64,000 nt of DNA from Bacillota bacterium. GTDB taxonomy: Bacteria > Bacillota > Bacilli > Alicyclobacillales > SLC66. This document shows, in pieces, positions 12,296 to 61,546 of the stretch. How positions within the stretch are numbered: the first letter of the stretch is position 1; every line of letters begins with the position of its first letter. The stretch spans positions 1 through 64,000 of the forward strand of contig JAKACV010000010.1 in assembly GCA_021821085.1 (NCBI GenBank), written 5' to 3'. A model generated the notes under the pieces. That model saw only the letters and a list, made by a program, of their open reading frames with translations. It was not told the origin of the DNA and searched no databases. A program made the position numbers and the translations under genes.

Positions 12296-12374
12296 TCAAA
12301 ATGGGTGCTGTCAAAATGGGTGCTTGATGTCCGCTAATGGTTCGGTTAATATAAAAATATCATGTCCGCTAATG
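12296..12374 (+). promoter_or_regulatory. Tn3 resolution site (TnpI recombination site)
   Basis: Two direct repeats TCAAAATGGGTGCT (12296 and 12311, one base apart) are followed by two copies of ATGTCCGCTAATG (12327 and 12362). In Tn4430-type transposons the TnpI site has accessory direct repeats beside a core, directly upstream of tnpI; this layout matches. The second copy contains an ATG in frame with tnpI, so it was not taken as the start codon. Confidence 0.7.
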
Positions 12375-12400
12375 TAAGCCAAGATTCGGAGGCATTACTG

Positions 12401-13318
12401 ATGAGAGAGAGAACCGGGATTTCGGAACAAGGAGCGCAGACGATTCAGGACTTTATTCAAGCTCTCACCACCCACGAAGATTTAAATCCTAAAACCCTAA
12501 AGGAATACGCAAGTGACCTGAAACATTTTATCGGTTGGTTTGAATCAACTGACCATCAGGAGGAAGAAGTGATTTTTCGAATTGAAGATGTGGCTACCCC
12601 AACATTAACACGATATCGGGAAGCCATGCAAAAAGCGATGGAATTAAAACCAGCCACCATCAACAGACGGATGATTACGCTAAAACGATATTTTGAGTGG
12701 GCCGTATCTGAATCCAAGATTCGCCGTGATCCTTCGAAGCCGGTCAAATTGGTCCCGGAAGAAAAGGTAAGCCCTCGACAGATGACGGATAAGGAAGAAG
12801 CGGCATTGATTGCCGCGGTTGAACACGGTGGCTCCCTCCGGGATCAGACAATTCTTGTTGTAATGTTTCATACCGGGTTAAGAACGATGGAGGTTTGCGA
12901 CCTTGCCCCTGGTGATGTTCAAATTGGAAAACGCAGTGATCAACTTACGGTGCGATCAGGCAAACGAAATAAACAGCGGGAAGTACCTTTGAACGCTACG
13001 TGCAGATCTGCTTTAGAAAAATACCTGGCAGTCAGCCATCCGGATGGTCCTTATTTATTTCCCTCAGAAAGAACCGGTGATCGACTGACCGAACGGGCTT
13101 TACGGCACTTGATTAAAAAATACATGAAAGCCGCTCGTCTCGAAGGTTTAAGCGCTCACGATCTGCGGCACCGGTTTGGATACGTGATGGCCGACAACAC
13201 GCCACTACACCGATTAGCACAAATCATGGGACATGACAGCCTGGATACGACGATGATTTACGTTAAGGCGACCCGTGCGGATCTGCAATCAGAAGTCGAA
13301 AAAATAGCATGGCAATGA
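12401..13318 (+). CDS. tnpI: TnpI-type tyrosine recombinase (Tn3-family cointegrate resolvase)
   Basis: A 305-residue tyrosine recombinase. The N-terminal SAM-like domain includes TLKEYASDLKHFIGWF. The catalytic part carries HTGLRTMEVCDL (Arg I), HDLRHRFG (His-x-x-Arg), IMGHDSLDTTMIYV (His and Tyr). I start at the ATG at 12401, eight bases after GGAGG, because the ATG at 12362 is part of the recombination repeat and has no ribosome binding site. It resolves cointegrates made by the Tn3-type transposase and lies directly before it. All catalytic residues are present, unlike in its neighbour tnpA. Confidence 0.85.
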   Translation: MRERTGISEQGAQTIQDFIQALTTHEDLNPKTLKEYASDLKHFIGWFESTDHQEEEVIFRIEDVATPTLTRYREAMQKAMELKPATINRRMITLKRYFEWAVSESKIRRDPSKPVKLVPEEKVSPRQMTDKEEAALIAAVEHGGSLRDQTILVVMFHTGLRTMEVCDLAPGDVQIGKRSDQLTVRSGKRNKQREVPLNATCRSALEKYLAVSHPDGPYLFPSERTGDRLTERALRHLIKKYMKAARLEGLSAHDLRHRFGYVMADNTPLHRLAQIMGHDSLDTTMIYVKATRADLQSEVEKIAWQ

Positions 13319-13332
13319 GGTGATAAACAGTA

Positions 13333-16305
13333 ATGTACGCGAGAGTAAGGGAACTGCTAACTCCAGAGGAACGGTTGCAATATTTGCAGATACCGCCCGA
13401 TCTTGGTGAATGGGAATTGGGTACCTACTTCACCCTTACCCAGCATGATCTTGAAATCATTCAACAACGGCGAAGAGATCATAACCGGCTCGGTTTTGCC
13501 GTCCAGCTATGTGTACTTCGATATCTGGGCTGGACATTTTCTGACGTGAAAGAAGTGCCGGTTCAAATTATTCGTTATCTCGCTAAACAAATCAACGTTG
13601 ATCCGGAATCTTTTGCATCATACGGCGACCGTGAAGCCACGAAATATGAGCATTTGGATGAGATAAGAAAAGAATATGGATATCAGAATTTTACCTCGGG
13701 CGAGTATCGTTCCCTGTGTAAGAATCTGTTTCCTCATGCGATGGCAAATGGGAATCCGTTGCACTTAATCCGGCTTGCGTTGGAGGACCTGAGAAAACGT
13801 AGAATCATGCTTCCTTCGATGGCCACGATTGAACGAGCAGTCTGGGAAACGCGCAAACGAACAGAGGAGAAAATATTCAAACTGCTCAGTGTCTCCCTAA
13901 CAGAAACGCAGATTACCAAGCTGGATCAAATCTTGACCACAATGCCAGAAAGTAACAGAACCTATTTGGCGTGGTTAAGGGAAATCCCCGGTACTAGTTC
14001 GCCGGAATCTTTCTTGAAGGTTATTGAAAAACTCGAATACATACGCAGACTGCATCTACAGGTCGATACGAAAGATATTCATCCGAATCGACTGCGGCAA
14101 CTTTCTAAAATCGGTTCCCGTTATGAATCTCACTCCTTTCGCCGGTTTGATGATCCGAAAAAGTACGCGATTTTGGTTGCGTACCTTTTAGAACTTATTC
14201 AAGATTTAACGGACCAGGCTTTCGAAATTCACGACAGGCAGATCATGGTACTGCTCTCCAAAGGGAAAAAAGCCCAAGAGGAAATGCAAAAGCAAAACGG
14301 TAAATCGATCAATGAAAAGATTGTTCACTTTGCCGATCTTGGAGCCGCCTTAATTAAAGCCCATAGCGAAGGGATAGATCCGTTTGTCGCACTTGAAGCT
14401 GTCATGCCGTGGGACAAGCTCGTCGCATCCGTGGAGGAAGCGAAACGACTGGCCCGCCCTGTCGATTACGATTATTTGGACTTACTTGAAAAGAAGTTCT
14501 ATGTGCTCCGGAAATATACGCCAACCTTGTTAAACTCGCTGGAATTTCGCTCAACCAAGTCAGCAGAACCTCTAATGAATGCGATCGATGTTATTAAAGA
14601 CATGAATGAAACAGGAAAGCGAAAAGTTCCAGAAGACGCACCACTGGATTTCATTTCAACCCGTTGGCAAAAGCACGTTTACGACGATGACGGAATGATC
14701 AACCGCCATTATTACGAAATGGCTGTTTTGACAGAGTTGCGCAATTACTGTCCGCTCCGGAGACGTATCCATTGTTGGAAGCCGCCAGCATAAAGATTTC
14801 GAAGAATATCTCGCACCCAAAGAGGAATGGGATCACATTGAACCAAACACTACAAAACTGGCTGTCAGTTTATCCGCAGAGGAGTATCTTGAGGAACAAA
14901 CAACCTCGCTTTTACAAAGATTAAACTGGGTTTCGGATCATATTGATGAATTGGATGGTGTAAGCGTAGAAAACGGGAAATTACACATTGAGCGGTTGGA
15001 AAAAGACGTTCCAGACGAATCAAGGGATTTCAGTCTTTCCCTCTATGAACTGCTCCCGCGAATCAAATTAACGGACCTGCTCATGGAAGTAGCCAACTGG
15101 ACAAACTTTCATGAACAATTTATTCACGCCTCCAGTAACCGCCCTCCAAATGAGGAAGAAACGTCAATCCTAATGGCCACGCTCATGGCAATGGGAACGA
15201 ATATCGGACTTACAAAAATGGCTGAAGCCACGCCGGGCATTTCATATCGGCAGATGGCCAACAATACTGCGCAGTGGCGGCTATACGAAGATGCGATGAA
15301 TAAAGCTCAGGCCGTTCTAGTAAATTTCCATCATCAGTTGGCTCTTCCGTCTTATTGGGGTGATGGCACTACGTCATCATCCGATGGAATGCGTATGCAG
15401 ATCAGCGTTTCTGCGCTTCACGCCGATGCGAATCCTCACTATGGAACCGGGAAAGGCGCCACGATTTATCGCTTCGTGAGTGATCAGTTTTCTACGTTTT
15501 ACGCAAAAGTAATCAATACCAACGCTCGGGACGCCGTGCATGTCATTGATGGACTACTGCATCATGAAACGGATCTGACCATTGAGGAACATTATACAGA
15601 TACCGCCGGATACACGGATCAAGTCTTTGGATTAACACATGTACTCGGATTCCGCTTTGCGCCACGGTTGCGCGACTTGGCTGACTCTAAACTGTATACC
15701 ATTGGAAAACCTGTTGACTTACCTAAGTTGGAGAAATTGTTACGAGGACAGATCAATATAAAGACCATACGGGAGAACTACGATGATGTGCTCCGGTTGG
15801 CTCACTCTATTCGAGAAGGTACGGTTTCTGCATCGCTTATTATGGGGAAACTCGGCTCCTACGCAAGACAAAACAGTTTGGCCACTGCGCTCCGGAAAAT
15901 GGGGAGAATCGAAAAAACGATCTTCATCCTGGATTACCTTTCAAGCGAAGCACTGCGGCGAAGAATCCACCGGGGGTTAAATAAAGGGGAAGCCATGAAC
16001 GAACTGGTCAGACGATTTTTTTCGGAAAACACGGAGAATTGCGAGAACGTGCTCTTCAAGATCAGCTCCAGCGGGCCAGCGCATTGAACATCATCATTAA
16101 TGCGATTAGTGTATGGAATACCGTTTATCTTCAGCAAGCAACAGAACATCGAAAGCAACAAGGTAGGCTTCAGGAAGAACTTCTAAATCACATTTCACCT
16201 CTCGGGTGGGAGCATATCAATTTCTTAGGCGAATACAAATTCGATTTCAGGCAAAATACGTCTCTAAATTCATTGAGACCTCTTATACAACAGGAAGTCG
16301 AGTGA
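13333..16305 (+). pseudogene. tnpA: Tn3-family transposase TnpA with two frameshifts
   Basis: A ~985-residue Tn4430-like transposase in three frames. The first 475 codons are open from the ATG at 13333 (N-terminal DUF4158 region starting LTPEERLQYL). A frame change near 14750 leads into codons for SGDVSIVGSRQHKDFEEYLAP, then a long frame (to 16087) with the DDE part: YWGDGTTSSSDGMR (first Asp), HVIDGLLHHETDL (second Asp), and the region before the Glu. A second shift near 16040 gives ALNIIINAISVWNTVYLQ and the usual end. Both shifts remove activity unless they are sequencing errors. Confidence 0.85.
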
Positions 16306-16974: not shown

Positions 16975-17506
16975 CCAAAAGCAAATTGAATGGCTAAGTG
17001 AACAGCCTCTGTAGTCAATTCTTGACCATTGTACTGCTCATCACAGAAATATCCATTGTACAACTTTCCCACACCCCGCGAACGACGTTGCTTACATTGA
17101 CTCGTCCAATGAGCTGATCATTACGGTTGAAGAAAATACCAAATCCGTATCCAGAACCGTTTTCCCAGTTCTGGCGAACCTTCTCCAAGACTTTCCGTTG
17201 CCCATTTAACGTGTAATGTGCATCAGGTGTGAGAGGTGCAAAAGTTTGCACAAACTCTCGATTCCTCAATCATAATTTCAATAGAGGTTGTTCAAAAAGG
17301 GTCGAGAACTCTGCGGCGCAGGGCTTCGGCTTGTGCTGGACATGCGTGCTCATGTACCACCTATCGTACACTCCGCGCGCATGTCCAGACTTCACCAAAC
17401 CCCTGCTTGCATCTTACCTCAACCCTTTTTGAACAGGCTCCAATAGTGAATTAAGGTCGTCAATTTCCAATCCCCGAATATAAATGCGTTTTGAGTCTAG
17501 TCTCAT
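16975..17506 (-). pseudogene. GNAT acetyltransferase (RimJ/RimL-like), disrupted three times
   Basis: Starts at 17506 with MRLDSKRIYIRGLEIDDL behind a GAGGTG ribosome binding site. After about 22 codons a 156-bp mobile repeat is inserted (17285-17440). The gene then resumes with REFVQTFAPL, GYGFGIFFNRNDQLIGRVNVSNVVRG. A single frameshift follows near 17060, after which the right frame reads GYFCDEQYNGQELTTEAVHLAIQFAFG, the acetyl-CoA-binding end. The gene stops dead at 16974 where an IS3 remnant begins. The family is RimJ/RimL-type N-acetyltransferases of ~180 residues. Confidence 0.85.
17285..17440 (+). repeat. 156-bp MITE-like mobile repeat, copy 1
   Basis: Ends AGGTTGTTCAAAAAGGGT and (reverse-complemented) GAGCCTGTTCAAAAAGGGT form imperfect terminal inverted repeats. 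A 6-bp target duplication CAATAG flanks it (17279-17284, 17441-17446). The GC-rich interior has a second inverted pair, GGACATGCG and CGCATGTCC. There is no meaningful reading frame. It is inserted in a GNAT gene. Confidence 0.9.
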
Positions 17507-23148: not shown

Positions 23149-23404
23149 AGAAACGTCTCCTTTCAAGCTTTCTCAACGTATACTTGGTGTCACCGTGATG
23201 TGCACTCCCATGAATTAGATCTTGACACCACAGAGTACTAATATCACTGTCTATTTTACATATTCTTTGGTTTTCGTCAATTTTACATTGGAGTAGTATC
23301 ATTTTAGTTGAGTCGATAAACTCATAAAACTGGAAAGAATGATATAAAAAGAAAGAAGGAATCCATAGACTGGACACTTTTAAAAAAGGTGTTCAGTTCA
23401 CCAG

Positions 23405-23683
23405 ATGCGAGTGTATGACAAAGAATTCAAAGAAGAAGCAATTAAATTGTCCTATGAAATTGGTCCAACAGCAGCCTCAAATCAATTGGGAATTCCACCA
23501 ACAACGCTTTACACATGGCGAAGCCAAATCAAAGAGCATGGATCTTTAGCATTTGTGGGTAGCGGACATCAGCGTATCGACCCCAAAACAGCAGAGATGA
23601 AAGGGCTAGAGAAAAAGATCAAAGAACTTGAATCAGCGAATAATATCTTAAAAAAGGCGTTAGCTTTTTTCGCAGAGAGCTAA
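23405..23683 (+). CDS. IS3-family transposase OrfA
   Basis: A 92-residue OrfA with helix-turn-helix (AASNQLGIPPTTLYTWRSQI) and a C-terminal coiled coil (KGLEKKIKELESANNILKKAL). It is intact in itself, but its partner orfB is broken, so the element should be immobile by itself. An A6 run (TTAAAAAAGGCG, around 23648-23659) marks the normal -1 frameshift site. It is not closely related to the OrfA at 4766-5059. Confidence 0.85.
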   Translation: MRVYDKEFKEEAIKLSYEIGPTAASNQLGIPPTTLYTWRSQIKEHGSLAFVGSGHQRIDPKTAEMKGLEKKIKELESANNILKKALAFFAES

Positions 23684-23685
23684 AA

Positions 23686-23840
23686 GAGCCTGTTCAAAAA
23701 GGGTTGAGGTAAGATGCAAGCAGGGGTTTGGTGAAGTCTGGACATGCGCGCGGAGTGTACGATAGGTGGTACATGAGCACGCATGTCCAGCACAAGCCGA
23801 AGCCCTGCGCCGCAGAGTTCTCGACCTTTTTGAACAACCT
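23686..23840 (-). repeat. MITE-like mobile repeat, copy 2 (155 bp, reverse)
   Basis: Reverse-orientation copy of the repeat at 17285, nearly identical apart from one missing G in the run near the AGGTTGTTC end. The target duplication is CTAAAA on both sides (23680-23685, 23841-23846), which read in element orientation is TTTTAG. It splits orfA from orfB of an IS3 element. Confidence 0.9.
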
Positions 23841-24106
23841 CTAAAAGAAATAGCTGCACGAGAACTGTTTCGATTTATATGGGCTCAACGGGAAAAAGAC
23901 CTGACCAAGCACAGCATGAAAGAAATGTGTAAGGTCTTACAGGTGAGTGAAGCTGGCTATTACAAATGGTTACGCACCCGGAGTCAGCCTTATAAATACG
24001 ATGAGCTTTTGGCTAAGATCCGTCAGATTCGGATCAAGTCCAAAGTGTGGTGTGAATTCCCCCATGATAGATATGGACATCGTCAATGCCTTCGGAACGA
24101 GCTTTC

Positions 24107-60938: not shown

Positions 60939-61235
60939 TCATGGCTAATTTTTAATATCACCATATTACCTCCGTAACAAGGTAAAACGGTGTTAAGTGC
61001 ATTTGTAAGTTATATAGAAAGTATATACGCCATAAAAATCACAATAGAACAATAATTCGAACTATTTTATAGTGAACTCTACCATACTTGCACACAAATG
61101 AACATTCGAAACAGAGTCCCGCCAACATTACAACGGAAATATACGCTAAGACAAAAAACACCACCATTTCGGCAGTATTTCATACGCTAAGCATGTTCCT
61201 GTTAATTTACTTGCCAATCAAAAGACTACTTATAG
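60939..61235. other. Upstream region of the sugar operon
   Basis: About 300 AT-rich bases upstream of the substrate-binding gene, presumably holding its promoter. I could not fix a -35/-10 pair or a clear catabolite-control site. Its right part leads into an unidentified gene fragment interrupted by the 156-bp repeat. Confidence 0.4.
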
Positions 61236-61391
61236 AGGTTGTTCAAAAAGGGTCGAGAACTCTGCGGCGCAGGGCTTCGGCTTGTGCTGGACATGCGTGC
61301 TCATGTCCCACCTATCGTACACTCCGCGCGCATGTCCAGACTTCACCAAACCCCTGCTTGCATCTTACCTCAACCCTTTTTGAACAGGTTC
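61236..61391 (+). repeat. 156-bp MITE-like mobile repeat, copy 3
   Basis: Almost identical to copy 1; differences seen include CCC for TAC in the interior GTAC region and TTC instead of CTC at the right tip. Flanked by the 6-bp duplication TTATAG (61230-61235, 61392-61397). It interrupts an unidentified gene fragment. Confidence 0.9.
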
Positions 61392-61546
61392 TTATAGATT
61401 TCGCACCGAAAATTAACGGTGCGTATGTATACAACTTTCTCACTACGACTGATTTCAAAGAGTACTCGAATCGTGCCGATCCGCAACCGATCCAAACCGA
61501 TGTATCCTTTCATCTGTTTGATGTCTCCGGTTGGCGGATCGTTTAG
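61392..61546 (+). pseudogene. C-terminal fragment of an unidentified gene
   Basis: Downstream of the repeat, one frame reads NGAYVYNFLTTTDFKEYSNR and ends VSFHLFDVSGWRIV. It looks like the end of a real protein. The upstream part is cut by the repeat insertion and not recognised, so no function is given. Confidence 0.4.

Follow-up and report, generated by a model that had tools for sequence, protein, structure and literature searches.

A recently amplified MITE with IS1182-like ends and a putative ERIC-type hairpin core in a genome of the Alicyclobacillales

What moves a short palindromic repeat through a bacterial genome, and what is its interior? The question is raised by a 64,000-nucleotide stretch of DNA (the window) from a Bacillota bacterium of the Alicyclobacillales (positions 1 to 64,000 of contig JAKACV010000010.1, assembly GCA_021821085.1), in which a sequence-only reading recognized a MITE-like element in three near-identical copies. 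For more than 30 years, palindromic interspersed repeats have been reported one genus at a time, and they are used for strain typing by ERIC-PCR; to our knowledge, there is no agreed account of their origin or function.

The three copies lie where that reading placed them and are 98.7 to 100% identical over 156 bp. The element itself is one base longer than claimed, with a start at the G at 17284, a length of 157 bp, and GAG...CTC at both ends. The terminal arms of 23 nt are 87% complementary, in agreement with the imperfect terminal inverted repeats proposed, and together with the short length and the lack of coding capacity they identify the element as a MITE (Table 1).

Table 1. Positions of the element copies and associated features in the window
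Feature	Position	Strand	Basis or remark
MITE copy 1, 157 bp	17284..17440	-	better-folding (RNA-sense) strand; covariance model R1 gives 162 bits on - vs 57 bits on +
Target duplication CAATA, left, copy 1	17279..17283		sequence
Target duplication CAATA, right, copy 1	17441..17445		sequence
Terminal inverted repeat GAGGTTGTTCAAAAAGGGTCGAG, copy 1	17284..17306	+	outermost 16 bp identical to the right end of an IS1182-like element, G000:C37
Terminal inverted repeat GAGCCTGTTCAAAAAGGGTTGAG, copy 1	17418..17440	-	1 mismatch in 17 against the left end of an 89%-identical insertion sequence in G031
ERIC-like central motif GCGGAGTGTAC-GATAGGTG-GTACATGAGCA, copy 1	17347..17376	-	apical stem, invariant G.U pair, purine internal loop
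MITE copy 2, 156 bp	23686..23841	+	inside an IS3-type insertion sequence
Target duplication TAAAA, left, copy 2	23681..23685		empty-site comparison
Target duplication TAAAA, right, copy 2	23842..23846		empty-site comparison
IS3-type insertion sequence interrupted by copy 2	23288..24031	+	element-free homologues in G002, G003, and G006
MITE copy 3, 157 bp	61235..61391	-	sequence comparison
Target duplication TTATA, left, copy 3	61230..61234		sequence
Target duplication TTATA, right, copy 3	61392..61396		sequence

The genome is a 2.85-Mb draft of 107 contigs and holds at least 40 scored matches to the element and at least 49 copies according to a covariance model of the element family (R1). The terminal-repeat pattern has 185 matches, compared to 0 for the reversed pattern, which excludes chance and puts the estimated number of copies at about 90. 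In pairwise comparison, 45 full-length copies differ by 1.5% on average. The element is a recently amplified MITE, a known kind of element, and the recent movement proposed by the earlier reading is borne out. DNA similarity searches of plasmid and phage collections left it unmatched. Three shortened copies of about 92, 134, and 48 bp (G000:C45:51714-51805; L060, 3326-3459; L061, 3537-3584) keep both ends and are read as internal deletion derivatives. Many contigs of the draft stop no more than about 150 bp from a copy (L019 and L026 among others), so the assembly probably broke at the repeat, and an intact parent insertion sequence could be absent from the draft.

The sequence-only reading described an exact 6-bp duplication of the form YWWTAG. 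Six bases before each window copy do recur right after it, but the true duplication is 5 bp. Exact 5-bp duplications flank 24 of 32 copies in a first set and 42 of 51 in a larger set from the same genome, and the sixth base, G, is absent in 8 of those 24 and in 10 of those 42. Since some copies have the 5-bp repeat without the sixth base, the G of YWWTAG stands as a target preference and lies outside the duplication, which is a TWWWA within a C...G target. In RNA orientation, C precedes the duplication in 32 of 42 cases and G follows it in 28 of 42. The target is the near-palindromic C-TWWWA-G, in which the hyphens enclose the duplicated bases. Relative to flanking genes, the 51 copies show no orientation bias (25 to 19) and thus lend no support to a role as terminator or 3' untranslated region. 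An early count of 31 copies had suggested that the upstream gene is mostly codirectional, a trend that is gone with 51 copies.

Copy 2 provides an empty site. The sequence it interrupts is repeated and is an IS3-type element with HTH_Tnp_1 and rve domains. With the flanks joined and one TAAAA removed, a gapless alignment of 360 bp to G002 is obtained, with 287 identical positions, and G003 and G006 give similar matches. The failure of the flanks to rejoin into an intact site had been named as one outcome that would count against a mobile element; at the 23686 copy, they join without a gap to relatives that lack the element. The gapless empty site shows that the insertion duplicated 5 bp.

The window contains no partner transposase, as the earlier reading had stated; a decayed partner copy is found on another contig of the same genome (C37 of G000). 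Here, a gene for a DDE_Tnp_1 transposase is followed 201 bp after its stop codon by GAGGTTGTTCAAAAAG, preceded by TTATA. The C37 sequence diverges from the MITE after 16 bp, and its end is therefore no MITE fragment. The spacing of the right end from the stop codon is 201 bp in intact relatives from G057 and 206 bp in a relative from the own genome. The left end is represented in G031, where an 89%-identical transposase has GAGCCTGTTCAAGAAGG 116 bp before its start, the same spacing being 106 bp in relatives. The MITE ends GAGGTTGTTCAAAAAGG and GAGCCTGTTCAAAAAGG, with their asymmetry, both match these IS1182-like ends. The C37 and G031 copies are truncated, one on each side, and the pair of ends is drawn from two loci; an autonomous partner with the same ends, part of the definition of a MITE, is found by way of these two. 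The whole genome and related genomes had been named as the places to look for the element and for a transposase with its ends: the element occurs in both, and transposase genes with these ends were found in the truncated copies of C37 and G031.

Intact members of the group measure 1636 to 1638 bp, have TGTCCGRAAAGC ends, and occur in the own genome and, with 16 copies, in G057. Exact 5-bp duplications of the same target form as that of the MITE flank 15 of the 17 intact copies. In G057, the ends of the insertion sequence read TGTCCGAAAAG, as do the MITE ends of that genome. An intact insertion sequence with exactly the ends of the MITE described here was not found in the draft genome. The transposase shows the domains DUF772 and DDE_Tnp_1, and its best NCBIfam match is NF033551 (IS1182), as in IS1182-family insertion sequences. 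In contrast to that family, the partner stays well below the cut-off of 270 bits (102 to 110 bits for full-length proteins, 60 to 110 overall) and forms a 1636- to 1638-bp group with GAGNNTGTYCRRAAAGS ends and 5-bp duplications. It is classed as IS1182-like rather than as a family member because the cut-off is not reached. The partner of the MITE is very probably this IS1182-like DUF772 and DDE_Tnp_1 element; the link is new and assigns to a MITE family one specific IS1182-like group of transposases whose target has been measured.

Past about 17 bp, the MITE and the insertion sequences have no common sequence, so the MITE is not a simple internal deletion of its partner, and a search for the ERIC-type core within IS1182-like elements found none. 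G014 and G016 contain many MITE copies, and the transposase is unmatched in either genome. Other DDE_Tnp_1 transposases of the own genome lack such ends, except for C37 and the related C92, and single terminal motifs in relatives that were considered as possible ends of insertion sequences proved to be MITEs or chance sites. The only good plasmid match of the transposase comes from Alicyclobacillus fastidiosus, and a G057 record matches at identical positions; G057 is probably this species or close to it.

The earlier suggestion of a structured GC-rich interior extends to the whole element, which folds end to end as one hairpin (z-score about -10 on one strand and -11 on the other). The elements carried by relatives in the same family are 154 to 177 bp long and differ in their stem sequences. 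Among twelve of these elements, 25 of 46 pairs are changed on both sides, 95.9% of cells pair, and the covariation of 0.459 compares to 0.167 after shuffling and to at most 0.096 for slid structures. The loops are fixed while the stems vary: AGGTAAGA/GAGTTCT and GAGYGTAC...GTACRTGAG, the latter with a G.U pair that is invariant in 12 of 12 and 15 of 15 sequences. The unpaired loops are the most conserved positions. With R1, the family is detected in 21 of the 61 relatives, frequently in tens of copies. Among 398 genomes searched, another 10 of the phylum contain it, and several of these show TGTTCRAAAAG ends and 5-bp duplications. Rfam 15 gives no family at its gathering score in the window, and permissive searches of the element yield only chance-level matches. 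In G005, 177-bp variants (L053, 957-1133; L074, 1131-1307) have an extra GC-rich side hairpin (ATGGCGCAGGTATGCGCCC) near one end.

A hairpin of this type is known from ERIC, described as interspersed, intergenic, full-length imperfect hairpins of 127 bp with features of mobile elements (PMC2229807) and reported for Enterobacteriaceae and Vibrionaceae (PMC10969869). Both ERIC and the MITE are interspersed and form an imperfect hairpin over their full length, with the same strand folding better. The center of ERIC, GGAGCNTAC...GTANGTGA, shows the same G.U pair as the MITE core, accompanied by the AAGG...ACGCAGC loop and by GAAGT near the 3' arm. ERIC differs in its ends and stems and lacks the 5-bp C-TWWWA-G duplication. 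The MITE combines the central motif and the three loops in one full-length hairpin (the outer loop by inspection), does not contain the enterobacterial 127-bp consensus or its ends, and resides in a host of the order Alicyclobacillales. It is thus classed as a carrier of an ERIC-type core, not as ERIC itself.

The R1 match to ERIC heads the list in the right place and register but, with 5.9 bits and an E-value of 0.53, is not significant. A second model, R2, was therefore built from fifteen core-motif and related loci without any enterobacterial or Alicyclobacillales sequence. These loci were chosen largely by the central motif, so its conservation within the set cannot count as independent evidence. 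The E-values of both models are rough; the argument rests on the rank order and on the distance to the next match. In the window, R2 ranks the three MITE copies first with 27.0, 26.6, and 18.0 bits, the next match reaching 11.8. In 50 kb of E. coli MG1655, its top match is the ERIC between ybhI and ybhJ with 21.4 bits, followed by 8.9.

The exact pattern GCGGAGCGTACN{4,14}GTACGTGAGCA, which neither the window copies nor ERIC match, occurs in at least 119 stretches of the genome collection across phyla, including Mesorhizobium, Rickettsia, Pseudomonas, Listeria, Paenibacillus, Nitrospirae, Desulfobacterales, and Bacteroidota. Viral contigs contain 20 matches, compared to 0 for the reversed pattern and 0 for a two-base variant. 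Around the core motif, the second loop CAAGG.../...ACGCAGC recurs and the flanking stems covary; the ends found with the core in other phyla are different and unrelated. Two genomes that did not enter R2, Listeria fleischmannii and a Paenibacillus, contain 46 and 62 copies by this model. Seven further genomes gave 49 to 146 copies in five cases, 10 copies in a Mesorhizobium, and 1 copy in a Rikenellaceae genome. Genomes with 46 to 146 copies belong to Listeria, Paenibacillus, Pseudomonas, Fulvivirga, Rickettsia, Nitrospirae, and Desulfobacterales. As for RNA stability, one and the same strand is favored in 31 of 33 families and in ERIC, by a mean of 9.9 kcal/mol over the 33. No relevant paper on the core motif or its link to ERIC was found in the limited set of journals searched. 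What is new above all is the core that, judged from these models and motifs, is common to the MITE, ERIC, and hairpin repeats of several phyla. In Paenibacillus, longer core-bearing elements were observed (L221, L258, L262, L408, and L416), some with TGTTCAAAAAGG ends like those of the window copies; L258 shows TTTAA on both flanks.

Three other readings of these data are conceivable. The element may be an ordinary MITE: its interior would be a long, passive palindrome that copying and gene conversion within the hairpin maintain, and the likeness to ERIC would be convergent. Long palindromes can keep their pairing without selection, the copies show no orientation bias relative to genes, and a role of the core in the host is a hypothesis. 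A passive palindrome is nonetheless quite improbable: the unpaired loops are the most conserved positions, conversion to a perfect palindrome would erase the invariant G.U pair, a profile free of Alicyclobacillales and enterobacteria ranks ERIC and the window copies first, and the control patterns have no matches in viral contigs. A hairpin of single-stranded DNA, folded during replication and recognized at its loops by a recombinase or transposase as are attC sites or REP elements, with the terminal repeats being secondary, would equally account for the strand asymmetry and the conserved extrahelical bases and fits the occurrence of the core with unrelated ends. It is considered unlikely, as the duplications, the target consensus, and the ends common to insertion sequences with a DDE transposase explain the mobility without folded DNA.

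Derivation from a Tn3-family transposon (a TIME) is a far-fetched reading suggested by a broken Tn3 transposase 1.2 kb from copy 1 (DDE_Tnp_Tn3 at 14951-16087) and by the 5-bp duplications of the MITE copies, since Tn3 transposons also make AT-rich ones of this length. The MITE-end repeats do not flank the Tn3 remnant in the window, and the MITE ends match the IS1182-like group instead, which refutes this derivation. The region 12362-16087 encodes a tyrosine recombinase and then a Tn3-family transposase in two frames (a DUF4158 part and a DDE_Tnp_Tn3 part) and is read as a decayed Tn3-type transposon.

The explanation held to be likely is a MITE of two modules, with IS1182-like ends and an ERIC-type core that probably acts as RNA in cis. 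The outer approximately 17 bp at each end would constitute the first module, which corresponds to the termini of an IS1182-like insertion sequence. The transposase of this insertion sequence would cut the element and join it into C-TWWWA-G sites, leaving the 5-bp duplication. The ends, target, duplication, and empty site are direct observations, and the action of the transposase on the MITE in trans is presumed from them. The inner approximately 120 bp would form the second module, an ERIC-type core. This core folds into a single imperfect hairpin whose internal loops are conserved, would be read from one strand, most likely as an RNA segment of host transcripts, and has been combined with different ends depending on the lineage. 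Observed for the core are its paired substitutions, its fixed loops, the strand bias, and its recurrence across phyla, and we infer that RNA is its active form. It would probably act in cis on the mRNAs containing it, through processing by or protection from RNases. A precedent is found in Yersinia, where cotranscribed ERIC copies destabilize upstream mRNA in an orientation-dependent manner (reviewed in PMC2229807). Such an action on host mRNAs may make insertions tolerable or even useful.

These data suggest a common RNA-like building block in the scattered palindromic repeats of bacteria. A wider reading, for and against which the balance is about even, is that one structured RNA core, ancient or spread among phyla, lies within many classic palindromic repeats, that it is a parasite or an RNA useful to the host, that it takes the ends of any transposon at hand, and that its fixed loops bind a conserved cellular factor. 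The carriers would be ERIC, the repeats of rhizobia, Listeria, Paenibacillus, and Nitrospirae, and probably some Rickettsia palindromic elements. If one fixed-loop core underlies many repeats, their origin (shared, with swapped ends) and their function (a binder of the loops) become testable in laboratory E. coli, and a covariance model could annotate palindromic repeats across bacteria.

Two known families offer further comparisons. Rickettsia palindromic elements are hairpins of 105 to 146 bp interspersed in Rickettsia (PMC2229807), and the genome of a Rickettsia endosymbiont has 140 core-profile matches, which are likened to these elements by description only. In the Bacillus cereus group, bcr1 is 147 to 167 bp long, with a TTTAT motif, a conserved stem-loop, and up to 130 copies (PMC6542083, PMC2267715), and about half of the bcr repeat copies are found in transcripts (PMC3446304). 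It resembles the MITE in size, TTTAT motif, stem-loop, and copy number, a likeness by description only that serves as a lead. In a Nitrospirae genome (L401, L410, L418, and L426), elements with a common core have differing arms (GGAGCCTGTTCAGGG... or GGCTGCTCAAAAAG...), as if the ends had been swapped. In loci from Klebsiella, Holosporales, and Lysobacterales (L200, L248, and L268), GCGCAG and CGAGCAC seem to lie on the arms opposite to those in Mesorhizobium.
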